Positions 4,108 through 20,176 of a DNA stretch of 20,226 nucleotides are shown here, piece by piece. The notes under the pieces were generated by a model that worked only from the letters and a program-made list of their open reading frames with translations, was not told the origin of the DNA and made no database searches. Location of the stretch: positions 1 through 20,226 of IMG/VR virus record IMGVR_UViG_3300031539_000401; one strand, written 5' to 3'. This stretch comes from a virus. The first letter of the stretch is position 1, and the number at the start of each line of letters is the position of its first letter. The translations under genes and the position numbers were made by a program.

Positions 4108-4212
4108 GCGGGCGAGGCCAAAAGAAAAGGCCGCCGGGGTGTCTGGCCCCAGACGGCCTTTCACTTCATGGCACACAGCGCGGCGGGAGCTACCCACCGT
4201 GCCGTCGCCCGC
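4108..4212 (-). repeat. Structured intergenic element, copy 1 (before the tail tube gene)
   Basis: On the minus strand the element is enclosed by an 8 bp stem (GCGGGCGA at 4205-4212 with TCGCCCGC at 4108-4115). Inside are a 7 bp hairpin with a 5 nt loop (4193-4199 with 4181-4187), a linker containing GTGTGCCATGAAGTG, and a terminator-like hairpin with a U-rich tail. About 70 nt of it match copy 2 with three differences. It lies entirely between the gp10-like gene stop and the tail tube SD. It may be a transcription-control RNA, a processing site, or a module-boundary sequence used in recombination. Confidence 0.6.
4120..4160 (-). terminator. Terminator-like hairpin in element copy 1
   Basis: On the minus strand AAGGCCG (4154-4160) pairs with CGGCCTT (4127-4133). 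An internal GTCTG/CAGAC or TGGGG/CCCC pairing strengthens the stem, and TTTTCTTTT follows. The tube gene starts 46 nt further on, so complete termination here would silence it. Partial termination, antitermination or RNA processing is more likely. Confidence 0.6.
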
Positions 4213-5415: not shown

Positions 5416-5799
5416 CTATTTGGTCTCCACGTGTTTCGTGTGTATCCGCAATGTTCCGCGCGTGGCGTCACAGTAACGCCAGTGCGGTTCGTTATTGCCC
5501 GGTTCCAGAACCTCATAGACATAGGTCTGGTCATCCGCGCCCGTCTCTTCAATGCGGTCGCCTACTTGCGGGAGCGTCGCCACTGCATCGAACAGTAGGT
5601 CGGTGGTGTCGACCAGAAAATCACGCATCTCAAAAACCGTTTCAACCCCATCGAGTCCCATCATGCGGAATACGGTCTTGCCCACCGTGGCGTCGAGCGC
5701 GACAGAATCCTCACCCCGTCGGTACGTAACCGCGTGCGTCATGTGGGCCTTGCGCTGCCCGCGCAGCCAATCAAAGCCGTCCTGGAGCATATCGCTCAT
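5416..5799 (-). CDS. Head-tail stopper / head completion protein (gpFII-like)
   Basis: This 127-residue protein starts at the ATG at 5799, overlapping the stop of the glycosyltransferase fusion gene as ATGA, which places it in the same translationally coupled unit. A longer upstream reading would run into the glycosyltransferase gene and is not used. The sequence begins MSDMLQDGFDWLRGQRKAHM and continues with VTYRRGEDSVALDATVGKT, then RDFLVDTTDLLF, PQVGDRIEETG and a C-terminal PHWRYCDATRGTLRIHTKHV. The YRRG start, the 'dfLvd..dL..d' strand, the PxxGDRI turn and the terminal RIHTK strand are typical of the small beta-barrel stopper proteins annotated as head-tail joining or 'ATP-binding sugar transporter-like' in phages. 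It is expected to seal the portal after DNA packaging. Confidence 0.75.
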   Translation of the reverse strand: MSDMLQDGFDWLRGQRKAHMTHAVTYRRGEDSVALDATVGKTVFRMMGLDGVETVFEMRDFLVDTTDLLFDAVATLPQVGDRIEETGADDQTYVYEVLEPGNNEPHWRYCDATRGTLRIHTKHVETK

Positions 5800-7409
5800 C
5801 GCCTGGCATCCTGCACGAGTTGGGCCATCACGCTGCCTTCCCGCAGTTCGTCCGCGTTGTGCTGTCGGCAGGCGAGCCACTGAAGATAGTTCGTCACGGC
5901 ATCGGACTTGGGCAGCCACCCGCGGACCATCTCCTCCAGGTCTCGCTTAAACGTGGCAAGGCTTGTCGTATGCGCCACGCCGGCATTGCCGTAGAGCGAC
6001 GGGCCGAACGCGAGGACCGGGCATCCCATCGCAAGGCATTCGTTCCCGGCATTCGAGTTGATGGTGACGGCGAACTTGGCGCCAGCCACGGCCTCCGCGA
6101 GCGTCGCGGCCTGACATCGCGGCAGGTATTGATGGCGTGACTTGACCCGTTTGTTCGGATGCGGACGCAGGACACCGCGGACGCCTCGCGGCAGGTTGCG
6201 GGCGACGAGTTTTTCGACCTGGAGGGCATGACACGGCGTAGAATCGTCGAGTTGGCTGTCGCCATCCATCTGTCCGAGCACTAGCACGTACCCTTCCCGC
6301 CTGCCGAATGATCCGAGCGGTCGGGGCCAGACCTTCGCCAGTCGCGCGGCACCGTCGGCCGGGGCGGGCCTTGCCCAATCATGCGCCCAGCTCGCCCAGT
6401 GGAGAATCCCGCTCTTGTTCAGGTGGATGTAGTTGCGGCGGTCGAAGAATCCATGCTCGAACACGATGTAAGGCACATGGCGCGCCCGTGCCGCACTCAC
6501 CGCCTTTTCATATTGAAACTTGCGACCATTCCAGATGATGAGCATGTCCGAGGTGTCAAAGTCGGGGACCGCCTGACTCAATCGCCAGACTTCCACGGTA
6601 CAGCCGATGTTCTGGAGCCCCTGAGCAATCGCATGGAAGGGCTGTTCCGTGTCCTCCCATTGCACGTCGAGCAGGGCGTAACAGACCCGCAGCCCCTTGT
6701 ACTGCGTGCCGCGCGGTTCCAGTTCGGTAATCAATTCCGGCGCGGGCGCAGCCGACAACTCCGTCCGCCCGTGCGCCCAGAGATGGAGCGTGAAGGGCAT
6801 CTGCCCGCTCGTCGGGGCGACATACTGCATTCTGCGGCACCCGTTCTTCCAAATACGGATCGCCCGCCCGATGGCGGCAGGATAGAACCACGGCCACGCG
6901 CCAACGGTGAACAGGTCAACATGCCCCGCAACAAGGGCCGTGAACATCTCCGGGCCGAAGCAGCAGCGCGAGAACGGCGGTTTCTGCGCGGCGCAGTAGG
7001 CGCGGATATGCGGCCACGCGGCGGAATCGGTATTGCCCGCGATGATGCCGTTGGCCATCGTGAGCGCCTGATTCTTCTGCCCATGCTGTTCGGTGATGAA
7101 CATCCGCTGCCCATCGACCGCGTAGGCGCTCGTAATGTCCGAAACGGGACGGAGCGGTATGTAGTCCGTGTCAAAATACCACCCGCCATATCGTTCAACG
7201 GCTGACAGTGCCAGCAGATCCGACTTCGAGCATGTGTCCTCGAGATGATTGTAGGCGTCCACGTAGTGGGGCAAGAGCACTTCGTTCCCGTGTATCCGCA
7301 CCTCATAGTCGGGATTGAGCAGGCGGAACTTCTCGACGTTCATCAGCATCCAGTGGGGCATCGGCGGTGAACCGTCAACCCAGACAAAATGAATCTTTTG
7401 GGGAATCAC
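5796..7409 (-). CDS. Two-domain glycosyltransferase: DXD sugar-transferase domain fused to a capsule-synthesis-like domain
   Basis: This 537-residue protein uses a GTG start at 7409, with AAGGAG upstream (8 nt spacer) and a GTGA overlap with the previous gene. Residues 1-230 form a GT-A domain of the 'glycosyltransferase sugar-binding region containing DXD' family (PF04488): it starts IPQKIHFVW, and the metal-binding DTD is at residues 80-82 in GGWYFDTDYIPL. This half is clearly paralogous to the preceding gene (shared FGPEMFT, LFTVGAWPWF and LHLWAHG). Residues about 240-537 look like a GT-B type capsule-synthesis domain (KpsC/KpsS-like, PF05159): GYVLVLGQMDGDSQ, VLRPHPN, and TINSNAGNECLAMGCPVLAF followed by GPSLYGNAG. 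One protein could therefore add two sugars in sequence. It is the last gene of the cassette and is coupled to the stopper gene. Substrates are unknown. Confidence 0.85.
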   Translation of the reverse strand: MIPQKIHFVWVDGSPPMPHWMLMNVEKFRLLNPDYEVRIHGNEVLLPHYVDAYNHLEDTCSKSDLLALSAVERYGGWYFDTDYIPLRPVSDITSAYAVDGQRMFITEQHGQKNQALTMANGIIAGNTDSAAWPHIRAYCAAQKPPFSRCCFGPEMFTALVAGHVDLFTVGAWPWFYPAAIGRAIRIWKNGCRRMQYVAPTSGQMPFTLHLWAHGRTELSAAPAPELITELEPRGTQYKGLRVCYALLDVQWEDTEQPFHAIAQGLQNIGCTVEVWRLSQAVPDFDTSDMLIIWNGRKFQYEKAVSAARARHVPYIVFEHGFFDRRNYIHLNKSGILHWASWAHDWARPAPADGAARLAKVWPRPLGSFGRREGYVLVLGQMDGDSQLDDSTPCHALQVEKLVARNLPRGVRGVLRPHPNKRVKSRHQYLPRCQAATLAEAVAGAKFAVTINSNAGNECLAMGCPVLAFGPSLYGNAGVAHTTSLATFKRDLEEMVRGWLPKSDAVTNYLQWLACRQHNADELREGSVMAQLVQDARR

Positions 7410-8095
7410 GCCTTATTCTCCTTGCCCGGCACCAGCAAGTCCGGCTTGCCATGTGCCCAAAGATGCAGCATGTACGGCAGTTGCCCGCCCGTAGGGGCCA
7501 CCAACCGCAGGGATGTCAGACCATGTTGCGCGGCGTACCGGTGCATGACGGCCGCCGTAGCTATGGGCAACGGAAAGAACCATGGCCAGGCGCCGACAGT
7601 AAACAATTCGGGATGCATCGCCTCGAAATGTGTGAACATCTCCGGCCCGAAGCGTGTCCGGCTATGCGGGGGTCTCGCCGCCGCAACGTGTTCCTCAAAG
7701 AGCGGCCAGCCGCGCCACTCCGTGCTCGCCGCCATCACGCCGCACGCAATCTTCAGGGACTTGTCCCGCTGCCCGTGCTGCCGCGCGACAAACATGGTCT
7801 GCCCATCCAGCATCCAGGCGTAACGCAAGTCACTCAGGCTGCGCAGGGGCACGAAATCCGTATCGAAGTAGAAGCCCCCTTGCGTGCGCATGACGCTCAG
7901 GGCTACAAGGTCCGCCTTGGTACAAAGGTCGTCCGTCTCCACGTAGCGCCGCCTAAATGGTTCTACGAGTTCCGACTCATTGTGGACAATGACGCGATAA
8001 TCTGGGTTGAGGCGCTGAAAGCCCCCGATGTTCTCCTGCACCCATGCCGGACGCGGCGGGCCAATCCAGACAAAATGTATGAGAGAGGGAATCAC
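7406..8095 (-). CDS. DXD-type glycosyltransferase (GT-A, PF04488-like)
   Basis: This 229-residue protein uses a GTG start at 8095 that overlaps the TGA of the previous gene, with AAAGG six bases upstream. It begins MIPSLIHFVWIG, the usual opening of this family. It has KADLVALSVMRTQGGFYFDT with the metal-binding DTD at residues 78-80, and conserved blocks RFGPEMFTHFE, ELFTVGAWPWFFPL and MLHLWAHGKP. It probably transfers a sugar from a nucleotide-sugar donor. The protein covers only the single GT-A domain and is paralogous to the N-terminal half of the next gene (5796-7409), suggesting tandem duplication followed by fusion or loss of a second domain. It is a soluble protein with no signal peptide or membrane segment. 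The acceptor is unknown. Confidence 0.87.
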   Translation of the reverse strand: MIPSLIHFVWIGPPRPAWVQENIGGFQRLNPDYRVIVHNESELVEPFRRRYVETDDLCTKADLVALSVMRTQGGFYFDTDFVPLRSLSDLRYAWMLDGQTMFVARQHGQRDKSLKIACGVMAASTEWRGWPLFEEHVAAARPPHSRTRFGPEMFTHFEAMHPELFTVGAWPWFFPLPIATAAVMHRYAAQHGLTSLRLVAPTGGQLPYMLHLWAHGKPDLLVPGKENKA

Positions 8096-8766
8096 GGTTT
8101 GCCTTTCTTCTCGGCTGCGAGTACTTCCGCTTCCTTCTTGGACTCACAGAGGGGATGCCAGCGGTGGATAAACGCCGGATCATCTTCTCGGACCCTTAGT
8201 TCGCGCACATGCCACCAGTGGGCAAAGCGCCCGTCCTCATTCGCTACACCCCACTTGTAACTCACGACCCACAGGTTGATGGCCCACTGGTCCTTGCGGA
8301 CGATGCAGCAACCGTGTCCGGCCCCCCAATACATCGCGGCCCCAGGCCCGTGCTCACGCTGGTAGCGCGGGAAGTATCCCTTGCCTGCTGTCGCCAACTC
8401 CATGCCGCGCCGGAGCACGGTGGCGGGCACCTCCATGTCCGTCTCCATGAAAAACAGAATGGGGGCCTGCGCGAGTTTGGCGGCCTCGTTCTTGCCGCCA
8501 CCAAGACTGAACGGGCCGTCCTGCTGCTGAATCCGCACGGGGATCGGGTCGGCGCGTGCGGGCAGCCACTCCGCCAGTGGCCAGTCGGTGCTGTGGAAGT
8601 CCGCGACGATGATCTCCACCTTCAGCCCCGACTCCAAGACGGACTTGCGCAGGCAATCCATGGTATGCGGGAACGGCTCTAGGGGCCGCTCTACCTGTTC
8701 GCCGCCGGGCAACGTGGCCATGTATGTCATGCGTGACCTGTTGAAGCACGCAAAACAGATGCTCAT
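8092..8766 (-). CDS. GT2-like (GT-A fold) glycosyltransferase
   Basis: The protein has 224 residues from the ATG at 8766, which overlaps the epimerase stop as ATGA. An ATG six bases upstream (8772) is an alternative. The N-terminus MSICFACFNRS is the first beta strand of a GT-A fold. It is followed by a helix (LRKSVLESG), the strand VEIIVADF, and GGGKNEAAKLAQAP before FFMETDMEVP, where TDME is the DXD-like metal site (around residues 109-112). The later WGVANEDGRFAHWWHV resembles the 'WG.ED.' region found in chondroitin-polymerase and beta-4-galactosyltransferase relatives, which contributes the catalytic acid. The C-terminus is Lys/Glu-rich (KKEAEVLAAEKKGKP) and probably flexible. It belongs to the coupled glycan cassette and lies between the epimerase and two DXD transferases. 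The sugar specificity cannot be read from sequence. Confidence 0.8.
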   Translation of the reverse strand: MSICFACFNRSRMTYMATLPGGEQVERPLEPFPHTMDCLRKSVLESGLKVEIIVADFHSTDWPLAEWLPARADPIPVRIQQQDGPFSLGGGKNEAAKLAQAPILFFMETDMEVPATVLRRGMELATAGKGYFPRYQREHGPGAAMYWGAGHGCCIVRKDQWAINLWVVSYKWGVANEDGRFAHWWHVRELRVREDDPAFIHRWHPLCESKKEAEVLAAEKKGKP

Positions 8767-9704
8767 ATCCATAGGTGGTGATACTCCAATGCTTTCTGTG
8801 CGGCGTCTGCGGAGACTTCTTCAACGTACCAGCGATATGTCGCTTCCAGTCCCTCTACCCACGGGGTGAAACCGAGGATCAGGTTCGCGCGCGCAAGCGC
8901 ATGACGGAGCGGGTTGATATCGGCTACCAGCCGCGTGTTCTCAACCTCCCCGACGCGCATGGGTAGGTGTCGGATACCCGCAGCACTCCCCGCAACCTCA
9001 TTGATGGTCTGCGCCACTGCCAGGACTGAAAGGGCGTGTCCCGTGCCCAGTTCGTAGACCTTATCCGCCAGCCCGGAGCGCGTTGCGGCCACCGTCCATC
9101 GGGCGAGGTCGTCAGCGTAGATCATGTCCGTTGTGTTCAATCCCGTTCCGTAGATCGGCAGGGGCAGACCAAAGCGGGCGCAGAGACAAAACGTGGGGAC
9201 GATTTTTCGCACCGGGGCCGTGTGCTGCTCCGGCCCGTATGCGTTGAACCATCGCAAGCGGATGATCTGCGTTGCCTCGCAGGTCAGGATTTCCGCAAAC
9301 CTGTCCGCCGCCTCTTTCGTTATCGTGTATGCGTTCAGCCACACATTGGGCTTCGTCGGGTAAAACACACGGCGGACGCCGGCGCGGACGCACGATTCAA
9401 AGACGTTGACCGCCCCCTTCACGTTCACGTCAATCGCCATCTGCATCGCGCCGTTCAACTCGGAGGTGCCCAGCACACCCGCTAGGTTGTACACCTCATC
9501 GGCGCCCACGATTGCCTCGTCTATCGTCGCGGGCTGGAGAATGTCGCAGGAGGCCACGGTAAGTCCCATGCTGCCCGCCGCCCACTGTGGCGAGAGGCCG
9601 GACAGGGTGGTGACGTGCAACTCATCTCCGCGCGCAAGCAACTCGCGCGCGATTGCGCCGCCCAAGAACCCGTCGCTTCCTATAACTACGCAACGCATGG
9701 GCAT
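8763..9704 (-). CDS. NAD-dependent nucleotide-sugar epimerase/dehydratase (extended SDR)
   Basis: This 313-residue protein starts at the ATG at 9704 (MPMRCVVIG), overlapping the previous stop as TGATG and preceded by AAAGG with an 8 nt spacer. It has the extended-SDR dinucleotide-binding motif GSDGFLGG (about residues 9-16), the VYNLAG strand (residues 71-76), and catalytic Tyr126 and Lys130 in AYTITKEAADRF. The C-terminal substrate part contains LRWFNAYGPEQ, YGTGLNTTDMIYADDLAR and YELGTGHALSV, all characteristic of UDP/GDP/dTDP-sugar epimerases and dehydratases. It likely converts a host nucleotide sugar into the donor used by the downstream glycosyltransferases. It is the only sugar-forming enzyme in the cassette, so other steps must come from the host. 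Exact reaction (4-epimerase, dehydratase or reductase) is not determinable here. Confidence 0.9.
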   Translation of the reverse strand: MPMRCVVIGSDGFLGGAIARELLARGDELHVTTLSGLSPQWAAGSMGLTVASCDILQPATIDEAIVGADEVYNLAGVLGTSELNGAMQMAIDVNVKGAVNVFESCVRAGVRRVFYPTKPNVWLNAYTITKEAADRFAEILTCEATQIIRLRWFNAYGPEQHTAPVRKIVPTFCLCARFGLPLPIYGTGLNTTDMIYADDLARWTVAATRSGLADKVYELGTGHALSVLAVAQTINEVAGSAAGIRHLPMRVGEVENTRLVADINPLRHALARANLILGFTPWVEGLEATYRWYVEEVSADAAQKALEYHHLWI

Positions 9705-10276
9705 CACACCAACCTTTCCAGCCAGTCGGGAATCGGGGAATCGGACAGAACACTCGTCCACACGGGATACCGCTTGTAGTCCCAGCGGTATCGGAAGTCC
9801 GGCAGACGGTGCAACTCGTAGACCGGGCGAGTCGGCCCCCTGCCCTGCGGATCGGGTTCGGTATTGTTCAGGATGAAGAGGTCGGCCTTGCCGCGCAGGG
9901 CTATAAGATTGTCGGGGCGGCGCTGGGCAATCCCGGAATCTTCAAAGACGACGGACCAGCGGCCGCCCTCGGGGAACTCGTAGAGATCACCTGTTGCGGG
10001 GTGCCGTCCGAAATGCCGGCAACCCACAAACTGCGAGATCACGTCGGTATGGACGATCTCATGCAGGGGCGCGCGCAAGTCTGCGAAGCGCGCAAGCCAT
10101 TTCAGGTTGACATCCACCGTCAACAGTTGGCGGCCCATTGCGCCGCAGAGCGCGTGGAGCAGGCGCGTGCTGTAGTGACCGCATCCGAGTTCAAGCACCG
10201 GGCCGGTCGTCTTGGCGACACACGCCGCGAGCACGGGGATGTGCGTGCCCCAAAGGTCTATTTCGCCGTTGTCCAT
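9704..10276 (-). CDS. SAM-methyltransferase-like protein, paralogue 2
   Basis: This 190-residue protein starts at the ATG at 10276, with AGAGG five bases upstream and the stop of the TylF-like gene in between (AGGTAGACATG). The opening IDLWGTHIPVLAACVAKTTG leads to PVLELGCGHYSTRLL, a Rossmann-type SAM-binding motif I (about residues 27-37). LLTVDVNLKWLARF follows, with the acidic residue expected at the end of strand 2. The C-terminus RYPVWTSVLSDSPIPDWLERL matches the end of the paralogue at 10847-11350, where YSPWTSVVSDTEPLDWLKP occurs. Around residues 130-165 it carries an insert-like VVFEDSG and DLFILNNTEPDP segment. It is likely a class I methyltransferase acting on the glycan, but the substrate is unknown and a nucleotide-binding non-methyltransferase role is possible. 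Confidence 0.72.
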   Translation of the reverse strand: MDNGEIDLWGTHIPVLAACVAKTTGPVLELGCGHYSTRLLHALCGAMGRQLLTVDVNLKWLARFADLRAPLHEIVHTDVISQFVGCRHFGRHPATGDLYEFPEGGRWSVVFEDSGIAQRRPDNLIALRGKADLFILNNTEPDPQGRGPTRPVYELHRLPDFRYRWDYKRYPVWTSVLSDSPIPDWLERLV

Positions 10277-10278
10277 GT

Positions 10279-10845
10279 CTACCTCTTGATGAACCAGATG
10301 TGGTGCGAAGGAAGGAGCACGCCTTCTTCTACCACGCGCGTACACGTCATCCACTCACGAATAGCTTGCGTGGCGAGCCATTGATATTCGGGATACCAGT
10401 CGTGACAGCAGAGAATGCCGCCCGGACTCATACGGCCCCACACCCATCGCAAGGTTTCGTACGTCGGGCGATACTGGTCGAGGTCCACATGCACGAACGC
10501 AAACCGGGGCAACCCCATGCGCCAGAGCACCGTCGGAATGTAGCCGTCCCATATCACGACAGATCGCCCGAACGGTGCGACTAACTGACGAAAGGCCGCC
10601 GAGCCACCGACGTTCAGAGAACCCTCGGGGTAGGAGCACTTGCCTTCCTTGTCAAAATCCTTTTCTGTGGGCCAGGCCATGCCGCGAAAACTGTCTACGG
10701 CGTGGACGTGCTTGGCGACCGCTATTGCCGCCTGCGCGAGCGGTATGAACGTCGCACCATGCCAGACCCCGAACTCGGCAAAGTCGCCCGGAATGGTCTT
10801 TGCCTGTTCGACGAGATGGGCAATCTGTTCAAAGGCTGCACGCAT
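10279..10845 (-). CDS. TylF/MycF-family methyltransferase
   Basis: This 188-residue protein starts at the ATG at 10845, with GAGG six bases upstream and the preceding stop in the spacer. A longer reading to 10878 lies within the previous gene and lacks an SD. The protein has GDFAEFGVWHGATFIPLA (SAM motif I, about residues 20-37), VHAVDSFRGM (motif II, around residue 50), FAFVHVDLDQYRPTYETLRW (residues about 117-134) with the Asp pair 121/123 that binds the metal, and GGILCCHDW (around 142-150). These are the landmarks of macrocin-O-methyltransferase (TylF) and MycF, Mg-dependent sugar O-methyltransferases of macrolide and polysaccharide pathways. In this cassette it probably O-methylates a sugar or glycan. 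It is flanked on both sides by two mutually paralogous methyltransferase-like genes. Confidence 0.88.
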   Translation of the reverse strand: MRAAFEQIAHLVEQAKTIPGDFAEFGVWHGATFIPLAQAAIAVAKHVHAVDSFRGMAWPTEKDFDKEGKCSYPEGSLNVGGSAAFRQLVAPFGRSVVIWDGYIPTVLWRMGLPRFAFVHVDLDQYRPTYETLRWVWGRMSPGGILCCHDWYPEYQWLATQAIREWMTCTRVVEEGVLLPSHHIWFIKR

Positions 10846-10846
10846 G

Positions 10847-11350
10847 TCAGACCTCGCAAATCGGTTTAAGCCAATCAAGGGGTTCCGTGTCGCTCACGAC
10901 GGACGTCCACGGCGAATACCGCTGCCATTCGACGCGATGCTTGAACTGTGTCAGCAACGGTTCGTATCGATAGCAGCGATTCTCGGTGTCGTGGATGACT
11001 ATGAGTTTCGTCAGCGGACGAAGGCGCAGGATGTCCGGCACGCGACGTATCGGCGGGGCATGGTCTATCAGCGCCACGTCCCACGTGCCCGATAGGTCGG
11101 CTGCCGACCAATCCGGCACCAGCAGCAGGCGGTGCCAGGCCGTGGCGAAGTGTCGGAACTGTGCCAGCCAGTTTGCATCGCTTTCCAGACTCAAGAGCGT
11201 CCGCCCCGTCTCGGCACAGAGGGCGTGGAGCATCGGCGTCGAGAATGTCCCCGTCCCCAGTTCGATGATGGGGCCGCGCGTATGCTGCACGCACGCCATC
11301 AGCAGCGGCAGATGCGTCGCGTAGGGCGGCAATTTCGCTCGTTCATCCAT
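10847..11350 (-). CDS. SAM-methyltransferase-like protein, paralogue 1 (first gene of the glycan cassette)
   Basis: This 167-residue protein starts at the ATG at 11350 (MDERAKLPPYATHLPLLMAC), preceded by AGAGGA with a 5 nt spacer. A longer reading to 11386 would begin inside the terminator and is rejected. Residues 28-37 (IIELGTGTFST) form SAM motif I, LLSLESDANWLAQF is the motif II strand, and WDVALIDHAPP is the later acidic strand. The paralogue at 9704-10276 shares (T/A)THxPxLxAC, the motif, LLHALC, and the C-terminal PWTSVxSD. It lacks the insert seen in paralogue 2. It opens the seven-gene coupled cassette and lies 23 nt downstream of the terminator hairpin. Its role on the glycan is inferred from context. 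Confidence 0.72.
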   Translation of the reverse strand: MDERAKLPPYATHLPLLMACVQHTRGPIIELGTGTFSTPMLHALCAETGRTLLSLESDANWLAQFRHFATAWHRLLLVPDWSAADLSGTWDVALIDHAPPIRRVPDILRLRPLTKLIVIHDTENRCYRYEPLLTQFKHRVEWQRYSPWTSVVSDTEPLDWLKPICEV

Positions 11351-11372
11351 GCGCGTCCTCTGCTTGACAACC

Positions 11373-11417
11373 GGAAAAGAAACCACAGACGCCCATCTCA
11401 GGCTGCCCCGTCTGCGG
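11373..11417 (-). terminator. Intrinsic terminator between the cement protein gene and the glycan cassette
   Basis: On the minus strand CCGCAGACG (11409-11417) pairs over 9 bp, with one wobble, with CGTCTGTGG (11383-11391) around a 17 nt loop. TTTCTTTT follows. It lies just after the cement gene and just before the first cassette gene, and no promoter is visible between it and the cassette. Read-through from the head operon would therefore set a low level of cassette and connector expression. Confidence 0.7.
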
Positions 11418-11453: not shown

Positions 11454-11789
11454 TTACGGGATGAGCTTCACGCGGACCGTTGCCGCAGCCGCAGCCGCAG
11501 CGATCACGACCTTGCCGAATCGCTTGAGGATGCCTGCAACCGAGGTCACAATATCCTCCGCGTCATTCCAGTAGACAATCGTCCCTGCGGCGAGGGCCGA
11601 GGTGGACGTGGTATCCTTGGGCACGTCGAACACGCCCTCAACGTAGAGCGCGCCCTTGCGGTTGGCCGCGATGTCATCCACGGCCACGCCGACGAGATCC
11701 GCCTGGACAATCACGTCTCCGGCAGAGACATTCGAGCCGGGCGTGTAGTCCACCATGTTCCCGGCCTGCACATATGTTGCGGTCGCCAT
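11454..11789 (-). CDS. Capsid cement/decoration protein, DUF2190-like
   Basis: This 111-residue protein starts at the ATG at 11789, preceded by GGAGG with a 9 nt spacer. The sequence begins MATATYVQAGNMVDYTPGSN. It continues with VSAGDVIVQADLVGVAVDDI, NRKGALYVEGVFDVPKD and AGTIVYWNDAEDIVT, and ends FGKVVIAAAAAAATVRVKLI. This is the recognisable layout of DUF2190 proteins: a 'YTPGSDVSAGDVI' strand, 'GVA', a GxLxVEGVF strand, an 'aGTxVYWDD' strand, and an Ala-rich GK(V)..AA stretch before a terminal VRVKL strand. DUF2190 members are small beta-barrel proteins that trimerise on the capsid surface as cement. The gene follows directly after the capsid gene and is separated from it by a strong stem-loop. 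The Ala-rich segment is longer than usual (seven Ala in a row). Confidence 0.88.
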   Translation of the reverse strand: MATATYVQAGNMVDYTPGSNVSAGDVIVQADLVGVAVDDIAANRKGALYVEGVFDVPKDTTSTSALAAGTIVYWNDAEDIVTSVAGILKRFGKVVIAAAAAAATVRVKLIP

Positions 11790-11865: not shown

Positions 11866-13353
11866 TTACAAGGCACCCTTGGACTTCACGCCGCCGAGGT
11901 AGTCGGCAAGCGCAACGCCGAAGTCCCAATAGCAGCGGTACTGGATGCCGAGCAGGTTGAAATCAACCTCGCCCTGCTCGATGATGGGCGTCCGCTGGCC
12001 CTTCAGGTAACCCACCTCGAACGCCGGGATGTCATTCGGGTTGGCCAGGAGATACCAGGCCGTCGTCGAATAGCCGGTGAGGTTGGCGTTGCTGAGGTAA
12101 GGGCTGCACTCAACCTTGTAAGAACCCGCGTGCGGATTCGAGTTCGGCTTCGGCACGTTGGCCGTAGTCGTCTCGTTGACCGTGATGTCGGTGTAGAGCT
12201 GCTTGGCAAGTATCAGCAGCGCCGTGGGCACCAGGATCATCGTCGGCGTGACTGCAATCGGGTCGCCGTCGGCATCAACCTGATCCATGAACATCTGGAC
12301 CGCCGTGGTGAGCGAACTGATTTGCAGGTTCGTTGCCGCGCCGGCGAAGTAGTTGACGTTGGCAGCCGTGAAGAAGCTGGCCCCGACACCCGTCGCGTTG
12401 ATGGCCGTAAACAGCGCCTTCTCGCGCGAGAGCGCGGCCTTGCGGCCGAGGAGCGCCGGGATCTCGGTAAACGCGCCCAGGTCATCGTTGACGATCTGTT
12501 GGCGCGTGAGTCCGATAAGCACGCCACGGGTGTCAAGCTGGTGCGTGTAGCTATCCTCGCCCAGTGTGAGGTGCTTGAGTTCACCTCCAGACCCCACGGT
12601 CTCCATGTTCCCACCCATGCTCATGCGATAGCGGGTGTGAACGTGGAAGTTGTTGAGGTCTACCTGCTTGGCAATGCGCGTGCTCACGGGGTCAACTGCG
12701 GTGAATGCCGCGAGCAGGCTCTTGTTCGCAACGGCACCGAGGATGCCGGGCAGCGTCAAGGTGCTGAACGCGGCGCGGATGGTGTCATTGTCGAACACCG
12801 GGCCGACGCCCTTACCCTCCATGCGGCAGCATTGGAGGAAGAGGTCTCTGAGGCCCATCCCCCGCAGCGGATAGGCCGCCTCAAGCGTCGGGGCGTCATA
12901 CGCCTTCTCGATGTCGATGCCGACGCCCATACATAGCGCGGCTTCGAGCACCTTGGGCGTGCGGGACTCGGAATGGGCCGGGCGGATGCCGATATGCCCG
13001 CGATCAGCGCGCATGACCTCAAGTTCGGCCTTTTCCGGCGTCCAGTCCTCGGTGAGCGCCTTGGCGAGAATCTCCGCGTGCTTTTCGCCGCAGAGTGCGC
13101 GCAGATTGGCTTCGCGTGCGCGTTCCGCCTTTAGGTCCGCGCGGACGGCCGCGATCACCTTGTCGGTGTCAACGGTCGCCTGAATCGCGTCGGGCGTCTC
13201 CTTGCCCGTGTCTGTCTCCGTCTCCTCGTCATTTTCTGCGTCGGCCACCGCCTTCACTTCAGCGTCATAGGCGGCGCGGAGCGCCTTGGACTGCTGCTCA
13301 TTCAGGGTCTTCGCATCGAAGCCCTGTGCTTCAAGCCACTTGTCGAACTCCAT
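11866..13353 (-). CDS. Possible nested product: scaffold plus major capsid protein from an internal start
   Basis: An in-frame ATG at 13353 (MEFDKWLEAQGFDAKTLNE) has a perfect SD (AGGAGGT at 13360-13366) with a 6 nt spacer. Initiation here would give a 495-residue protein with the scaffold-like segment and the whole capsid domain but no protease. The junction sequence immediately before it, SLTTTGGQD, looks like a linker. This start would fit the need for many more capsid subunits than proteases, similar in principle to nested protease/scaffold genes such as lambda C/Nu3. Whether the ribosome uses it is inferred from the SD alone. Confidence 0.65.
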   Translation of the reverse strand: MEFDKWLEAQGFDAKTLNEQQSKALRAAYDAEVKAVADAENDEETETDTGKETPDAIQATVDTDKVIAAVRADLKAERAREANLRALCGEKHAEILAKALTEDWTPEKAELEVMRADRGHIGIRPAHSESRTPKVLEAALCMGVGIDIEKAYDAPTLEAAYPLRGMGLRDLFLQCCRMEGKGVGPVFDNDTIRAAFSTLTLPGILGAVANKSLLAAFTAVDPVSTRIAKQVDLNNFHVHTRYRMSMGGNMETVGSGGELKHLTLGEDSYTHQLDTRGVLIGLTRQQIVNDDLGAFTEIPALLGRKAALSREKALFTAINATGVGASFFTAANVNYFAGAATNLQISSLTTAVQMFMDQVDADGDPIAVTPTMILVPTALLILAKQLYTDITVNETTTANVPKPNSNPHAGSYKVECSPYLSNANLTGYSTTAWYLLANPNDIPAFEVGYLKGQRTPIIEQGEVDFNLLGIQYRCYWDFGVALADYLGGVKSKGAL

Positions 13354-14115
13354 GTCCTGACCTCCTGTAGTAGTAAGGGAGAACGTCGCCGCGATTTGCA
13401 GGCGGGTGGTACGGTCTGCACCTACGGGCACAACGGATATCTCCCGCAAGATCGCGCGTTTGACGTGGGAAAACGGCCCGGTATGCGATTGGCCGTTCAC
13501 GATGCGCGTGTCGCGCACAAGTTCGCTGTCGAGAACTTCAACTCCGATGGACATCTGCCAGTCCGCCCCGGCCTGCGCCTGGCTGAGCACCTGTTTGGCC
13601 TCGCTGTTGGTCGGCAGGATTTCGCCCTCAACGGTGAGGGTGTTCTGATCCTTGCGAGCCTGCACCATGCCGATGCGCGAGCGGGTCTTGTTCTCGTGAT
13701 TAGTGAGGAGGGGCACAGCGGCAACGGCTTCCAGTCCGGCCAGGTCGACCACGACGGGATACTGCCAGCCGGGAACCTTCATCTTGCCCCCGCCATACGC
13801 CAAGCCGACCACGCGGGCGCGTGCGATATCGCCTGCGGCCTCGACCAGCAGAAACTCCGCAGCGCCCTCGGCCTGTTCCCCGGTAGCGGGTTCAAACAGA
13901 ATCGGCTTGTGGTCATGCTCCGCAAGCCACACCTTGGCCTCGGCCACGGTGAACTTGCCGGAGTCAAACCGGATGGCCTGCAACTCCATAGACCCGCTGG
14001 CCTTTTTGCAGTAAATCGCGTCTATCCCGGCGCCGAATTCGTCTGTAGCCGTCCGGCATGTGTCGTACTGACCAGGATCGCGCAATCGCGCCGAGTGTTG
14101 ACCTTGAAAGGGCAT
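11866..14115 (-). CDS. Prohead protease - scaffold - major capsid protein fusion
   Basis: This 749-residue polyprotein starts at the ATG at 14115 (MPFQGQHSARL), preceded by AAGGAG with a 7 nt spacer. An upstream in-frame ATG at 14139 lacks this SD and sits within element copy 2. Residues 1-40 hold an 'QHSARLRDPGQYD' motif often found at the N-terminus of phage capsid-assembly proteins. Residues about 90-245 form an HK97-type (U35/S78) protease with candidate catalytic His140 (PLLTNHE), Ser189 (MSIGVEV) and Glu225 (LREISVVPVGAD). Residues about 255-370 are an acidic, helical, scaffold-like segment (AVADAENDEETETDTGKE). Residues about 380-749 resemble a Mu gpT-type/HK97-fold major capsid protein (VDPVSTRIAKQVDLNNFHV, LLGRKAALSREKALF, ILVPTALLILAKQLYTD, CYWDFGVALADY at the C-terminus). 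Protease and capsid are usually separate genes, and here they are one frame. Confidence 0.88.
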   Translation of the reverse strand: MPFQGQHSARLRDPGQYDTCRTATDEFGAGIDAIYCKKASGSMELQAIRFDSGKFTVAEAKVWLAEHDHKPILFEPATGEQAEGAAEFLLVEAAGDIARARVVGLAYGGGKMKVPGWQYPVVVDLAGLEAVAAVPLLTNHENKTRSRIGMVQARKDQNTLTVEGEILPTNSEAKQVLSQAQAGADWQMSIGVEVLDSELVRDTRIVNGQSHTGPFSHVKRAILREISVVPVGADRTTRLQIAATFSLTTTGGQDMEFDKWLEAQGFDAKTLNEQQSKALRAAYDAEVKAVADAENDEETETDTGKETPDAIQATVDTDKVIAAVRADLKAERAREANLRALCGEKHAEILAKALTEDWTPEKAELEVMRADRGHIGIRPAHSESRTPKVLEAALCMGVGIDIEKAYDAPTLEAAYPLRGMGLRDLFLQCCRMEGKGVGPVFDNDTIRAAFSTLTLPGILGAVANKSLLAAFTAVDPVSTRIAKQVDLNNFHVHTRYRMSMGGNMETVGSGGELKHLTLGEDSYTHQLDTRGVLIGLTRQQIVNDDLGAFTEIPALLGRKAALSREKALFTAINATGVGASFFTAANVNYFAGAATNLQISSLTTAVQMFMDQVDADGDPIAVTPTMILVPTALLILAKQLYTDITVNETTTANVPKPNSNPHAGSYKVECSPYLSNANLTGYSTTAWYLLANPNDIPAFEVGYLKGQRTPIIEQGEVDFNLLGIQYRCYWDFGVALADYLGGVKSKGAL
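13360..13366 (-). promoter_or_regulatory. Internal ribosome binding site for the nested capsid start
   Basis: AGGAGGT on the minus strand is followed by a CAGGAC spacer and the in-frame ATG at 13353. It is better than most gene-start SDs in the window, which argues that it is not chance. Confidence 0.65.
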
Positions 14116-14139
14116 CTGTCGTCTCCTTGTCTGCTTCAT

Positions 14140-14245
14140 GCGGGCGAGGCCAAAAAGAAAAGGCCGCCGGGGTGTCTGGCCCCAGACGGCCTTGCACTTC
14201 TTGGCACACAGCGCGGTGATGATCAGTCACCGCGACGTCGCCCGC
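14140..14245 (-). repeat. Structured intergenic element, copy 2 (before the capsid polyprotein)
   Basis: The same layout as copy 1: an enclosing 8 bp stem (TCGCCCGC at 14238-14245 on the plus strand with GCGGGCGA at 14140-14147), a hairpin of 8 bp with a 7 nt loop (14227-14234 with 14212-14219), the linker GTGTGCCAAGAAGTG, and a terminator-like hairpin. It lies between the portal stop and the capsid gene. The near-identical part includes linker and terminator, while the variable hairpin differs from copy 1 in sequence but keeps pairing. Confidence 0.6.
14152..14193 (-). terminator. Terminator-like hairpin in element copy 2
   Basis: On the minus strand AAGGCCG (14187-14193) pairs with CGGCCTT (14160-14166) and is followed by TTTTCTTTTT. 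The capsid gene starts 37 nt further on, so efficient termination would block the most abundant virion protein. Regulated read-through or processing is more plausible. Confidence 0.6.
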
Positions 14246-14259
14246 TTACTGTCGGGTTG

Positions 14260-15765
14260 TCAAGCCTGTACGCCCATCTCGCGCAACGCCTCTGCAATCT
14301 CTTCCGCGTCGGGTGCGTCGCCGGCGGATTCCGGCTTGGACGCGACTTCGGGCAGGTCGAGTCGTTCCCGCTCCTTCTTTTCACGCGAAAGTTGCTCATA
14401 GACGTCTTCCCAATCCATGCCGCGCCTGGCAAAGTGTTCGGTATCGGTCAGGAGTCCGGCCTTCTTCAGCGTGTCGGCGGCGTCCGCTTCCTTCACGGGG
14501 TCGACATGGGGGACGCCATCCCAGTAGTATTCGCGTTCAGCATCGACCATGAGCCCACCCCAGTCCGGGAATACAAGGTTGGCCTCTGCAATCCAGTCGT
14601 CCACAATCGAGTCCAGAATGTCATCCTCGCCCTGCTTACGGTCTACATACATGTCAACCCAGAATGTCTGCTGGTCAAGGCGCCCGCTCGCGTAGTTGTA
14701 GGAACTCGAATCGCAGGCCGCGATGTTATAGGGCATGTTCAGCGCGCGCCCGATCTCGTTCAGGACTTCCCGCTTGAACTCCTTGTAGGTGGACGAGGGC
14801 TGGGTAGGTTCCATCTGCCCGGGCTTCCAGCCTGCGGGCGCGATGGTCAACATATTGCGTTCCAGTTCTATCGCGTCGAATCCCGTAAGTATTTCGGCAT
14901 AGCCGTTCGGCGGGATCTCCGTATACAGGATGTTCGCCATAGTCGCCGCCATCTCTGCGGCGCTCAGTACGGCGAGCGTATACCGTCGCATCTGTCCATA
15001 GAGGGGGAGGCTGGACATGATTTCGCTCAGGCCCCGGTGCTGTTCCGGGCGATCCGTGGAGAACCAGTGGAGCATCCTGGAGGCAGGCACAGTCTCGTAT
15101 TGGGGACTCGGCAGGTTGTAGAGTCCGCCGGGGTGCTGTTTCAGCACATGGTATTCCTTGGGGTTCCCGAACTCGTCGAGCACCACGCCATCCACGTTGT
15201 AGGGGTCGCCCGTCGCTCCGAGTTCAGTCACGCGGTCGCATTCGATAATGCGCAGGTCAAGCTTCACGGCATGGTTGAGATTCGGGTTCGTCTCCTTGAC
15301 GGCAAAACTCTCGCCGTCCACGGTACGGGCCTCGTGCATCTGGAGCAGCTTCTTGGCAAGCCCGACCCGACGCGCCCATGACTTGAACTCGCGCTCGACC
15401 TGCTTGGCAATCTCCTTGTCCTCGATGAGCAGTTGCAGGCGGGGGCCGCTGCCGATGACGAAATTGGAGCGTGTTTTTACCATGCCGCGGGCATAGCAGT
15501 TGTTCGCAAACTCGTACCGGGCGCGCTCACGGACCCTCTTGCGGATGCTGTAACTATTGGCCTGATCAGCGTTCAGGGCGTCGGTGTTCGCCCAGTGGCG
15601 GGTATTCTCAGTGGTAGTCTGCGCCGCGTCATATCTCGCCTCGATCAGATGCGCTGCGTGTCTCCCCTGGCGGACGCGCCCCTGCGCCAGTATCTCACTC
15701 AATGCGTCGCGGATTTCCGCCTCACGTTTCGCGGCGCGCCGTTTGCCTATACCGAACAGGTCCAT
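14260..15765 (-). CDS. Portal protein, lambda gpB type
   Basis: This 501-residue protein starts at the ATG at 15765, sharing one base with the stop of the preceding small gene (TAATG). The N-terminus is basic and helical, followed by HWANTDALNADQANSYSIRK and RERARYEFANNCYARGMVKT with SNFVIGSGPRLQ, the usual opening of lambda-family portals (PF05136). It continues with TVDGESFAVKETNPN, LRIIECDRVTELG, YHVLKQHPGG and HWFSTDRPEQHRGLSEIMSS. Further on it has a helix region with LDQQTFWVDMYVDRKQ and a C-terminal acidic tail. The length fits the family. It forms the dodecameric ring at the capsid vertex, through which the terminase packages DNA. The position after the terminase and before the protease-capsid gene is standard. 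Confidence 0.93.
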   Translation of the reverse strand: MDLFGIGKRRAAKREAEIRDALSEILAQGRVRQGRHAAHLIEARYDAAQTTTENTRHWANTDALNADQANSYSIRKRVRERARYEFANNCYARGMVKTRSNFVIGSGPRLQLLIEDKEIAKQVEREFKSWARRVGLAKKLLQMHEARTVDGESFAVKETNPNLNHAVKLDLRIIECDRVTELGATGDPYNVDGVVLDEFGNPKEYHVLKQHPGGLYNLPSPQYETVPASRMLHWFSTDRPEQHRGLSEIMSSLPLYGQMRRYTLAVLSAAEMAATMANILYTEIPPNGYAEILTGFDAIELERNMLTIAPAGWKPGQMEPTQPSSTYKEFKREVLNEIGRALNMPYNIAACDSSSYNYASGRLDQQTFWVDMYVDRKQGEDDILDSIVDDWIAEANLVFPDWGGLMVDAEREYYWDGVPHVDPVKEADAADTLKKAGLLTDTEHFARRGMDWEDVYEQLSREKKERERLDLPEVASKPESAGDAPDAEEIAEALREMGVQA

Positions 15766-15962: not shown

Positions 15963-15984
15963 GCCTTGTGCCTCCTGTGAGAGT

Positions 15985-16079
15985 CCGCGCCAAAAGAAAA
16001 GGGCCGCCTGGTGGTCTGGCCGCCAGACGGCCCTTGAATTCTCTTGGCTATGAGCGTGCGGGCTTGCAATCCCGCGCGC
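15985..16079 (-). repeat. Structured intergenic element, copy 3 (before the small pre-portal gene)
   Basis: A divergent member of the same element. It has a hairpin of 9 positions with one C/A mismatch and an 8 nt loop (16071-16079 with 16054-16062), then a linker containing GCCAAGAGAATT in place of GCCAAGAAGTG, then a terminator-like hairpin with U-rich tail. The enclosing stem seen in copies 1 and 2 is not clear here. It sits just before an SD, as the other copies do. Confidence 0.5.
15992..16035 (-). terminator. Terminator-like hairpin in element copy 3
   Basis: On the minus strand AAGGGCCG (16028-16035) pairs with CGGCCCTT (15999-16006), with additional GTCTGG/CCAGAC pairing inside, followed by TTTTCTTTTGG. 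The next gene's SD begins within 20 nt. Confidence 0.6.
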
Positions 16080-16584: not shown

Positions 16585-18754
16585 GTCGTGCCCTCCTCTG
16601 CATCTCTGCGGCGCTCATCGGCGCCTTCTCGGTGCGGACCTGCACCTTGGTCATACCAGTACCCGGCAATGCGGCGCCCAGCATGGACGCCCCGGCCGCG
16701 CAGCCCACTACGCAATCGAACCAATGGTTGTCTGGTCTGTGCGCGGGCTGCTTCCACTCGTCCAGTTCACGGCCGCGCCCCTGTGTCCGTACGCGGTATT
16801 CACTGGTCATGTGCTCGGCAAAGAGGCGGTGTTCACCGGGCTTCGTGCCGAAGAGTGACAAGCACCCCTTGTCCCCCATCGCGGTTGAGAAGCGTTCATG
16901 GACAAAGGTTTTCCAGTAGTTGGTATCCACCTCAACGTGCCGCAGTGCCCGCTTCTTTGCTACGCTGGGAATCCACCAGTTGTGCCCGATGCGGTCGCCA
17001 CGGTGCCTGTCGAACTCGCTGATGGGTTTCATGCTCGCGGTGATCCCATGTCCGCGTGCGGGCATGAGCGTAGCCGCGTGGCCCGATTGCCGGCAGAACT
17101 GGTGGACGACGGGCGTGAGCCATCCCTGGTCTATCAGGCACCATCGAACCCGCATGACCGCCCCATCGTCACGCGCCCACTCCGCTGTAATCAGGTGGTT
17201 CACCGCCGCCCCCAGCGCGGCGTATATGGCACCCTCAACGCCGGTCCCCGGGTGCGCGCGGCGGATCGTCCGTTGCACGTCGCGGTATGCAAAGTAGGCA
17301 CTGCCCTGTTCGGGATAGGTGCCGTAGTCCATGATGTAGCCGGTAAAGTCCGGCTCCCATGCGCAGACGGCCCAGTACAGCAACTTCTCCCCCACGTCTA
17401 CAAACGCGGTCAGGTGCTCGGCAGTGTGCGGCACCTCGCCCCTGATGCGCCCGTTGATCTTGGCAGCGATGCCGTCAGCATCCAGTATGGGCACCTGTTC
17501 CAGTTGCGGCGCCATCGGCTCATTCTGGTACTCCGAGAAGAACGCCGCCTCATCCCGGAGTCTCAGGTTGATAGCGTGCTGAATCGCTGAAAGCTCGTCG
17601 GGGTTGTGACACTCCGGCCATGCTATCTGCGCGCCCTGGTCCATTTCGGCCTGATGCTCCCGATAGAACTCCGTCGCCTCCTCACCGTTGGCGCCCTTGC
17701 GGAAACTGTCGGCCCGGAGTTCTGCGTATTGCTCCCACCGTTTCGCGTTGGTCGGGAACTGATAGACCATCTTGAACCGTTCCCCGTTCCATTCGGGGTG
17801 CGCGTCGCGGTCCAATATGCGGTCGGCCATGTCGCCCGGGCTGATGACCGTGCAGGGCATGATGCCCGATATCTTCTTGCCCGGCCCTGCGAGGCCGAGT
17901 GCCGCGCCCGCGAGTATGCGCTCCCGCGCCTGGCACTGGGAGAGGCTCCGCGCGCTTTCGTCTGTCTGCGGGTCGTCCAATATCACCACGTCAGGGCGAA
18001 TTGAGTCGCCTTCCGGCGTCTGGTGCTTCATGCCGCGTATGCGCCCCGTGATACCTGCTACCTTCAGGATCGCCCCGCTCGCCTTGCTCCCCGGAATCGT
18101 GGGCAGCACGATTTCTTTCTGTGTCCATTCTATGTGCGTGCGTTCGCCCTCACAGAGTTGGCCCGCGCAGCGATTCGCAATCCCCTCCAGACATTGAATC
18201 GGGTAGGCCACCTCCGGGAAATCCGCGAGCAGCAAATCGTTCGTGTCGAGTTCCACTTTGATGGTGTCCAGCATATTGACGGCGTGCCCCTCGTCCGAAC
18301 CGATGAGCGCCACAAAGCGCCGGTGTCCGTATGCGGTAGACCAGATGCACGCGCGTTCGCAGAGCGAACTCTTACCACTGCCGCGCGGCATCGCCACGGC
18401 AAACAGACCCCCTCGCAGCACAGCCTGCTCAATACGCGCGATGACCTTCAGATGATCCGGCGACCACGGCAGATAAAATACGTGGGGGAAATAGCTTTCG
18501 CAGAACACCCGGAAACTGCCGGCGGCCTGCGCCTTGCGTTCGGGGTCGGCAACCGCTGGAATGGGCGCAATGTCACGCCCGGCCTGCGCCATCTGCGCCT
18601 GACGCGCGCGGGAGCGTTCCTTGCGGCTGGCATAGTCGCCGTTACCATCCCGTGGCTTGCCGATGCTGCGCAGCAGTCGCACATCATCCGGCGTCAATGC
18701 CCCAATGTTTGTCTTGGCAAGCTCGATGATTTCAGCAATCGTCCGCTTTGCCAT
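16544..18754 (-). CDS. Large terminase subunit (packaging ATPase-nuclease)
   Basis: This 736-residue protein starts at the ATG at 18754, sharing a base with the methyltransferase stop (TAATG). Walker A is VAMPRGSGKSS (about residues 120-130) and Walker B is VVILDDPQTDE (256-266) with the Asp-Asp pair. The segment SPGDMADRIL (306-315) fits the coupling region. The nuclease half begins near AFVDVGEKLLYWAVC (Asp454). It carries LIDQGW later and ends with RPDNHWFDCVVGCAAGASML (around 685-705), the final acidic strand typical of these enzymes, in a style close to GpA-like terminases. An extension of about 30 basic residues (MQRRARLAREAREARSLGY at the end) follows and overlaps the zinc-ribbon gene. 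It packages DNA into the prohead through the portal. No small terminase subunit is recognisable in the window, so it is presumably upstream. Confidence 0.92.
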   Translation of the reverse strand: MAKRTIAEIIELAKTNIGALTPDDVRLLRSIGKPRDGNGDYASRKERSRARQAQMAQAGRDIAPIPAVADPERKAQAAGSFRVFCESYFPHVFYLPWSPDHLKVIARIEQAVLRGGLFAVAMPRGSGKSSLCERACIWSTAYGHRRFVALIGSDEGHAVNMLDTIKVELDTNDLLLADFPEVAYPIQCLEGIANRCAGQLCEGERTHIEWTQKEIVLPTIPGSKASGAILKVAGITGRIRGMKHQTPEGDSIRPDVVILDDPQTDESARSLSQCQARERILAGAALGLAGPGKKISGIMPCTVISPGDMADRILDRDAHPEWNGERFKMVYQFPTNAKRWEQYAELRADSFRKGANGEEATEFYREHQAEMDQGAQIAWPECHNPDELSAIQHAINLRLRDEAAFFSEYQNEPMAPQLEQVPILDADGIAAKINGRIRGEVPHTAEHLTAFVDVGEKLLYWAVCAWEPDFTGYIMDYGTYPEQGSAYFAYRDVQRTIRRAHPGTGVEGAIYAALGAAVNHLITAEWARDDGAVMRVRWCLIDQGWLTPVVHQFCRQSGHAATLMPARGHGITASMKPISEFDRHRGDRIGHNWWIPSVAKKRALRHVEVDTNYWKTFVHERFSTAMGDKGCLSLFGTKPGEHRLFAEHMTSEYRVRTQGRGRELDEWKQPAHRPDNHWFDCVVGCAAGASMLGAALPGTGMTKVQVRTEKAPMSAAEMQRRARLAREAREARSLGY
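16592..16598 (-). promoter_or_regulatory. Ribosome binding site that fixes a TTG start
   Basis: GAGGAGG on the minus strand lies inside the last codons of the terminase gene, 7 nt before TTG at 16584. No ATG or GTG occurs at this distance, so the zinc-ribbon gene very probably starts with TTG. Confidence 0.65.
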
Positions 18755-19740
18755 TATGCTCCCTTGCTTGCCTTCCTTAGTATTTCTATCTTCATATGTT
18801 CTGCAATTGCCTTTATCAAGTTCGGAGGAACGCTATTGCCGATATGTGCTTTTATATCTGTCTGGGTTCCATGCCATTTAAAGGTATCAGGGAATCCCTG
18901 CAAGAGACTAGCTTCCTGTATAGTCAAGTGCCGTGGGACTTCATAATGCCAATTGGAATGGGCTTTGATTTGCGTATTGCTGGGCCTATTCGGGTCAAGT
19001 CGTACAGACTGAAAACTTCCAACATACCGGACGGCTTTGCATAGAGATTGCCCGGGCTTGCTTTTGTACCACGCATCAATTACTTGTGGCTGATGCTTGC
19101 CCTGTTCTCCCTTCGGCAAATGCCCAATAGCATCCCTGACCGTTCTTGGTTTCGTCTGTGGCTGCGGGAAACTTGGCTCAATCCCCAAGTTGTTCCGTAC
19201 GCCGATAATGATAACCCGCTCCCGACTCTGCGGCACATTGAAGTACATGGCATTCACGACTTCGCCTCTGGCCCGATATCCACACTCTCGTAGGGTCTGA
19301 ATGATGCATAGATATGCCTGCTTCATATATCCCCTTATCAGTCCGGTCACGTTCTCCATAACAAATGTACGGGGCTGCAAATCCTTTAGTAATCTCGCAA
19401 ACTCCATGAATAGACTATTACGCAGATCAGTAAACCGCCGCTTCCCAGCCGTACTGAATCCCTGACAGGGCGGGGAAGCATCCAATAGGTCAAGTGCGCC
19501 CAACTTGATGTCAGCGAGTCTTATACATTCTGGACCGGTTAGCTTTGCAATATCGCCATGATAGACTGGTACATCAGGAAAGTTTAGCTTGAATGTTGCT
19601 ACGGCATTATCATCCCACTCAATAGCAAGTAGTTCTCGAAATCCTGCTAGCTCATAGCCAAGAGAAGAGCCGCCGCATCCAGCAAAGAGAGAAATTACTG
19701 TCGGCTGCTTACCACTTGAATCCACACTTGGGACATTCAT
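18754..19740 (-). CDS. DNA (cytosine-5) methyltransferase
   Basis: This 328-residue protein has all main C5-methyltransferase motifs in order: I ISLFAGCGGSSLGYE (about 16-30), IV SPPCQGFSTAGK with catalytic Cys92, VI FVMENVTGL (127-133), VIII QSRERVIIIG (171-180), IX RHLTIQEASLLQGFPDTF (270-287), and X HIGNSVPPNLIKAI (299-312). The recognition domain lies between VIII and IX and is short and basic. No endonuclease gene is next to it, so it is an orphan enzyme, likely protecting phage DNA from host restriction. The ATG at 19740 lies inside the end of the ParB-like gene (32 bp overlap) without a good SD, so coupling is likely. The gene is much more AT-rich than its neighbours (two 60-base lines at 42% GC), suggesting recent acquisition. 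The target sequence cannot be read. Confidence 0.95.
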   Translation of the reverse strand: MNVPSVDSSGKQPTVISLFAGCGGSSLGYELAGFRELLAIEWDDNAVATFKLNFPDVPVYHGDIAKLTGPECIRLADIKLGALDLLDASPPCQGFSTAGKRRFTDLRNSLFMEFARLLKDLQPRTFVMENVTGLIRGYMKQAYLCIIQTLRECGYRARGEVVNAMYFNVPQSRERVIIIGVRNNLGIEPSFPQPQTKPRTVRDAIGHLPKGEQGKHQPQVIDAWYKSKPGQSLCKAVRYVGSFQSVRLDPNRPSNTQIKAHSNWHYEVPRHLTIQEASLLQGFPDTFKWHGTQTDIKAHIGNSVPPNLIKAIAEHMKIEILRKASKGA

Positions 19741-20176
19741 GGGTTGTCTCTGCTAACTTGGATTCGTCAATGATCTTGTTTTCATCAGGAACTATCAGTC
19801 TAGCCAGGATTTCCTCAGGCTTCAATCCGAATTGGCTCAGATCAATCTCGCCCAACTCCCGCACTTCTGCCGCCAGCGCCTCCTCAATCCATGCCGACAA
19901 GTCCCGCGTAGAATTGTCTGCCAACCGATATGCCCGCACCTGCGCAGGCGTCAAGTCCCGCACCACATGCACCGGAACCTCGGCCAGTCCCAGTTTCAGG
20001 GCCGCCCTGTACCGCGTGTGTCCACAGACGATCACCCCGTCAGCGTCCACCACAATAGGTTGTCGCCACCCAAACTGCTGAATCGAGGCCGCAACAGCGT
20101 CTACCGCCCCGTCATTGTCGCGGGGGTTCCTGTCGTAAGGCTTTAGGTCAACAACCTTTCGGAGTTCAACGTCCAT
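19709..20176 (-). CDS. ParB/Srx-like N-terminal domain protein with a C-terminal CxxC
   Basis: This 155-residue protein starts at the ATG at 20176 with GGGAGG and an 8 nt spacer. Residues about 1-100 form a ParB-like nuclease/CTPase domain: KPYDRNPRDNDGAVDAVAAS, IQQFGWRQPIVVDADGVIV, and CGHTRYRAALKLGLAEVPVH, which holds the family's GHTRYRA motif. This is followed by VRAYRLADNSTRDLSAW, a segment seen in phage ParB-like proteins that precede or fuse to DNA methylases. The last residues TTHECPKCGFKW have a single CxxC, half of a zinc ribbon. Here the adjacent methyltransferase is a separate overlapping gene. It could help target methylation or act in packaging. The C-terminal part is AT-rich like the methyltransferase gene, unlike the N-terminal part. 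Confidence 0.87.
   Translation of the reverse strand: MDVELRKVVDLKPYDRNPRDNDGAVDAVAASIQQFGWRQPIVVDADGVIVCGHTRYRAALKLGLAEVPVHVVRDLTPAQVRAYRLADNSTRDLSAWIEEALAAEVRELGEIDLSQFGLKPEEILARLIVPDENKIIDESKLAETTHECPKCGFKW

Follow-up and report, generated by a model that had tools for sequence, protein, structure and literature searches.

Conserved internal start at the protease/scaffold junction of a viral protease-scaffold-capsid fusion gene suggests two nested head products

The window (the whole stretch of DNA analysed here) is a 20,226-base IMG/VR virus record; both the virus and its host are uncultured. Its head genes include a fusion gene encoding protease, scaffold-like and capsid segments (Table 1), which lies on the minus strand, a point on which the earlier note was silent. 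The uninterrupted 749-codon frame claimed in that note was recovered and is stop-free from ATG 14115 to the stop codon at 11868-11866. There is also an in-frame ATG further upstream (14139), but it has no Shine-Dalgarno (SD) sequence (-1.5 kcal/mol) and ATG 14115 is preceded by aaggag (-8.0 kcal/mol), and ATG 14115 is therefore the likelier start. A second, 33.5-kb contig of the same virus (L002) encodes a fusion protein that is 100% identical. A frame artefact or sequencing error was ruled out, as the same frame is present in this longer contig and in all of the relatives tested.

Table 1. Features of the fusion gene and its immediate neighbours in the window.
Feature	Coordinates	Strand	Details
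Portal gene, lambda family	14260..15765	-	directly upstream of fusion gene
N-terminal SD, aaggag, for ATG 14115	14121..14127	-	duplex -8.0 kcal/mol
Protease-scaffold-capsid fusion gene	11866..14115	-	749 codons; predicted 80.8 kDa
N-terminal module	13868..14115	-	~82 residues; missing from most relatives
Prohead protease domain (predicted)	13354..13845	-	S78 family, herpesvirus-assemblin / T4 gp21 fold; candidates H140, S189, E225
Internal SD, AGGAGGT	13360..13366	-	duplex -11.0 kcal/mol
Internal ATG	13351..13353	-	residue 255; linker end, immediately before first scaffold helix
Acidic helical scaffold-like (delta-domain-like) segment	12754..13353	-	residues 255-454; pI 4.75
HK97-fold major capsid domain (modelled)	11869..12753	-	residues 455-749; Phage_capsid_4 / Mu gpT type
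Predicted second product, scaffold-capsid	11866..13353	-	495 aa, 53.5 kDa; from internal start
Head decoration (cement) gene	11454..11789	-	directly downstream of fusion gene

A gpA-type terminase gene precedes the portal gene and is adjoined by a C-5 cytosine DNA methylase gene (18754-19740, minus strand) and by a gene that is ParB-like by eye (19709-20176, minus strand). A sugar-gene island (5796-11386, minus strand) separates the decoration gene from the head-tail joining gene. It comprises genes for an NAD-dependent epimerase and a TylF-type methyltransferase, three glycosyltransferase-like genes, of which one has a Capsule_synth domain, and two neighbouring genes without a Pfam match; it may be a module for modification of virion or host glycans inside the head operon. 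A 64-nt element is present in 97% identical copies at 14153-14216 and 4120-4183, in front of the fusion gene and of the major tail gene, respectively, and a third, weaker copy (about 15980-16030) lies before a small gene that is itself upstream of the portal gene. The element forms a strong hairpin with a U-rich run behind it (z -3.4); upstream, the similarity reaches as far as a conserved TTGACA-like word. Both close copies are present in the longer contig, and none was found in the records of six relatives. It might be a cassette that combines promoter and terminator, or one that stabilises mRNA, for the proteins needed most.

The domain composition of the fusion protein was examined by profile searches and by an AlphaFold model built from 30 relatives. 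Pfam matches were obtained to Peptidase_S78 (E 1.6e-7), Phage_capsid_4 (E 2e-40) and Mu-like_gpT (E 2e-6), the last of which bears out the Mu gpT-like capsid domain proposed earlier; the S78 and Phage_capsid_4 matches are both above the Pfam cut-off, and S78 profiles also match the protease region. No convincing PDB relative was found by sequence. The model contains a confident protease at residues ~100-243, a linker (residues 244-253) with pLDDT <50, helices at 257-263, 273-296 and 317-342, and a capsid domain from residue ~455. When modelled alone, the protease part gave VIA Z scores of 10.6 to T4 gp21 and 8.0-9.4 to several herpesvirus proteases (assemblins). The catalytic candidates named in the earlier note (H140, S189 and E225) are correct in the 749-residue numbering and are invariant among the 30 aligned relatives. 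The assemblin-type fold of the model and the His-Ser-Glu triad identify this domain as an HK97-type (S78) prohead protease, with predicted activity.

The segment that follows the linker had been described as acidic and scaffold-like, and residues 255-345 indeed have a pI of 4.45 and a net charge of -9. Composition and the AlphaFold model indicate that residues 255-454 as a whole are acidic and mostly helical, and they would probably serve as the scaffold. The modelled capsid domain has the HK97 fold: Foldseek returned E values of about 1e-9 to phage capsids and 1e-8 to HK97, and VIA gave Z 13.7 to HK97 (1ohg) and up to 15.8 to encapsulins. The N-terminal module is ~50% identical to the N-terminus of 'major capsid' proteins from Synechococcus phages S-CBS1 and S-CBS3 and Roseobacter CRP phages, and has a sub-threshold likeness to the plant BRX domain.

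It had been noted that these functions are encoded by separate genes in most phages. This is true, but the one-frame fusion is itself an established family, represented by NF045541, PHROG 4523 and the description of phage MD8. NCBIfam NF045541 and NF045540 and PHROG 4523 and 133 cover protease/capsid fusions, such as those of Gifsy-2, F10/MD8, mEp460, S1 and RcDormio. Like them, the fusion protein described here joins a protease, a scaffold-like segment and a capsid in one frame; it differs in its additional N-terminal module and its planctomycete-associated group. It matches PHROG 4523 (E 1e-73) and NF045541 (E 7e-86 over residues 137-756 of a 757-residue form), and an S78-type protease and a Mu-gpT-type capsid are joined in one open frame. 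The NF045541 score of 289 bits is below the curated NCBIfam cut-off of 525 bits, and the protein is therefore a divergent relative with the architecture of the family rather than a member by the NCBI threshold. Sf11 was rejected as a further example, its capsid protein being 356 residues long and not fused. In the parts of the literature that could be consulted, phage MD8, whose protease is ClpP-type, is described as encoding protease, scaffold and capsid by one gene (PMC8508860), and protease/capsid fusions are reported for Paracoccus and Rhodobacter phages (PMC6536676, PMC8601537); the accessible text of these three descriptions gives one product only and no internal start. Protease-capsid fusion is thus already known. 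No mention of the internal start was found in the literature covered, which included only a minority of subscription papers.

The internal start in the window has the form aggaggt caggac ATG, i.e., AGGAGGT with a 6-nt gap before the ATG at 13353, as reported in the earlier note, which placed it at the junction of protease and scaffold; in the AlphaFold model Met255 falls on this predicted domain boundary. An exact AGGAGGT-N6-ATG occurs once in the window, compared with 0.02 expected occurrences in shuffled sequence. Using duplex energy as a proxy for initiation, the internal SD in the window (-11.0) is stronger than its N-terminal counterpart (-8.0). Across clusters of relatives the two are comparable with no clear trend, so these energies cannot decide whether internal initiation exceeds N-terminal initiation and do not support the quantitative part of the earlier note, little fusion product and much protease-free capsid.

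Conservation of the internal start in homologues, the check proposed in the earlier note, was investigated with relatives collected in two scans (160, with identities of 36-100%; planctomycete genomes and environmental viruses supplied most of them). Most of the genome matches (L086-L165) are to MAGs with a Planctomycetota label (Phycisphaerales, Pirellulales and others), and planctomycetes are thus indicated as hosts for this group of viruses. Because homologues were ranked by their likeness to a query that is itself fused, non-fused relatives are under-sampled; protease and capsid share one open frame in every relative examined, a result that this ranking favours. Conservation was assessed in 151 fused relatives, none identical to another and most of them phages and prophages of planctomycetes, in 20 clusters at 60% identity. 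Of the 151, 123 have an ATG at the junction and 13 a GTG, counting only starts whose SD duplex reaches -5 kcal/mol. An in-frame ATG with an SD of -6.5 or better was found at 80% of junctions and in 4.7% of the other 50-codon blocks of the same 151 frames; with one sequence per cluster (20), the values were 80% and 1.8%. The gap between GGAG and ATG peaks at 6 and 9 nt. A chance SD was ruled out by the same-frame block controls, synonymous redraws and shuffles. At the level of sequence, these comparisons show that the internal start is selectively retained.

An alternative explanation is that only the full-length precursor is made and the protease cleaves itself out, the junction motif being a protein-level linker or cleavage site whose likeness to an ATG with an SD is incidental. 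HK97-type proteases do cleave scaffold from capsid, and most of the planctomycete relatives read the SD in a single phase, as K/Q-E; within that family alone, K/Q-E may be under selection at the protein level. However, the peptide encoded by the SD varies among relatives (TGG in the window, and KEN, QEN, LEV, EEE and YGG elsewhere), yet the SD and the start codon stay. The other two fusion families show the SD in every one of the three reading phases. In five sequences Met is replaced by Val, and the codon is GTG in 5/5, compared with 43% of the Val codons in those frames. The SD is stronger than in synonymous redraws (combined p 0.001), its distance from the ATG is that of working initiation sites, and the mRNA around the internal start is less folded than the remaining frame in 18/18 clusters tested (mean z +1.5, p 8e-6). 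The junction signal therefore looks to be nucleotide-level rather than protein-level.

The two other families of fusions were also investigated. Among ClpP-type fusions, a junction ATG with an SD of -4.5 or better was found in 67/67 frames and 10/10 clusters (control blocks 5/71), and among other S78-type fusions in 70/73 frames and 31/33 clusters (control blocks 29/143). Cultured phages with this arrangement are Gifsy-2 (Met221), F10 (Met220), mEp460 (Met188), Stenotrophomonas S1 (Met207), Bordetella PY223 (Met218) and Shewanella 1/44 (Met205); the signal is weaker in RcDormio (Met214) and Pben1 (Met223). Internal SD and ATG are therefore kept far above controls in three fusion families, which supports the two products suggested in the earlier note. 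The refuting condition named there, loss of both from close homologues, was examined and did not refute them. ClpP-type and S78 proteases have unrelated folds and both carry the site, suggesting that it follows the architecture rather than one type of protease. That the same signal also accompanies ClpP-type proteases, which are unrelated, and is found at the annotated internal start of Mu argues further against a precursor-only scheme, which is improbable overall.

One point in favour of the precursor-only scheme is a clade entirely without the internal start. This group (L042, L046, L048, L055, L056 and L088) and a few scattered relatives have no internal signal, and at least four changes are needed on the tree of relatives to account for its presence and absence. 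In the six records of the group, most of which are partial, no second capsid gene was found; judged from this single capsid gene, the fusion can apparently work without the internal start. Either another initiation signal is used in the group or the fusion alone suffices. The internal ATG and SD have been lost and the first scaffold helix retained, and the group is a natural experiment on the need for the short product.

Two further explanations were considered. The internal start could be an unused relic of ancestral protease and capsid genes that were once separate: tailed phages more often keep the two as separate genes, and Mu I/Z and T show the likely ancestral layout. An unused site would have decayed, however, whereas this one persists within a hypervariable linker in frames only 36-47% identical to that in the window, with reduced mRNA structure, making a relic highly unlikely. 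It is just as hard to credit that the SD is a pause site letting the protease fold before the capsid domain is synthesized, for although SD-like sequences inside genes can slow ribosomes and the site is at a domain boundary, pausing requires neither a start codon at 5-9 nt nor open mRNA, and all three are retained.

The arrangement was compared with known nested-start systems, its defining feature being an in-frame internal start codon with an SD at the protease/scaffold junction. The analogy with lambda C/Nu3 drawn in the earlier note is apt: a protease gene contains an in-frame internal scaffold start (Nu3 SD -6.9), and long minor and short major forms co-assemble. Lambda differs in that its protease is S49-type and its capsid (E) is separate. 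Mu I/Z is closer, having a capsid relative and a matching signal. The in-frame scaffold start (Z) within the Mu protease gene (I) is annotated as 'start site internal to gene I' and has the shared CAGGAGAAC-N6-ATG signal (cagGAGaac-N6-ATG; SD -7.4), its junction peptide (QQENKP/MNETL) resembles the planctomycete motif QEN-x-x-M, and relatedness between the Mu capsid gpT (gene T) and the capsid domain described here is detectable. In Mu, however, the capsid has its own gene (T), and the internal start yields scaffold alone; no homology between the protease described here and Mu I was detected (hhalign probability 0.1), and Mu I itself matches PF10123 only. In HK97 gp4/gp5, as here, the scaffold is the N-terminal domain of the capsid protein and the protease acts within the prohead, but protease (gp4) and capsid (gp5) are two genes. 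Herpesvirus UL26/UL26.5 combines an assemblin-fold protease-scaffold fusion, the fold matched here by VIA, with a nested scaffold-only product that has a common C-terminus; the UL26.5 product is translated from its own transcript, and the capsid is encoded by another gene. By analogy, the mechanism proposed here resembles that of Mu I/Z and lambda C/Nu3, extended by the capsid.

The explanation favoured by these observations, with a probability of about 0.84, is that the gene encodes two nested in-frame translation products: an 81-kDa protease-scaffold-capsid and a 54-kDa scaffold-capsid. Ribosomes starting at ATG 14115 would produce the former and those starting at ATG 13353 the latter, which would be the functional precursor of the major capsid protein, with an N-terminal scaffold like that of HK97. 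We infer use of the internal start in vivo, co-assembly of the products, their cleavage and the ratio between them. Long and short forms would co-assemble through the common capsid domain and, because both products end in that domain, the long form could enter the prohead shell as a protease-carrying subunit. After assembly, the enclosed protease would cut off itself and the scaffold, and how many proteases each prohead receives would depend on the ratio between initiation at the two sites.

A broader proposition, held with somewhat greater than even confidence, is that phages with protease-shell fusions generally keep a junction start whatever the protease (ClpP- or S78-type), such that the shell would be a mosaic of protease-bearing and protease-free subunits, the dose of protease would be set by initiation alone, and the annotated 'head maturation protease' would hide the true major capsid precursor. 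A protease on each of some 400 shell subunits would crowd the prohead interior and hamper control of processing, and a conserved internal start would be a simple answer for the entire class of single-gene heads. A second product is predicted in the cultured phages Gifsy-2, F10, mEp460 and Stenotrophomonas S1. The annotation of capsid genes in fusion phages would change, stoichiometry would become testable by point mutation, and the layouts of Mu, lambda, HK97 and the herpesviruses would be linked as one nested-product theme.
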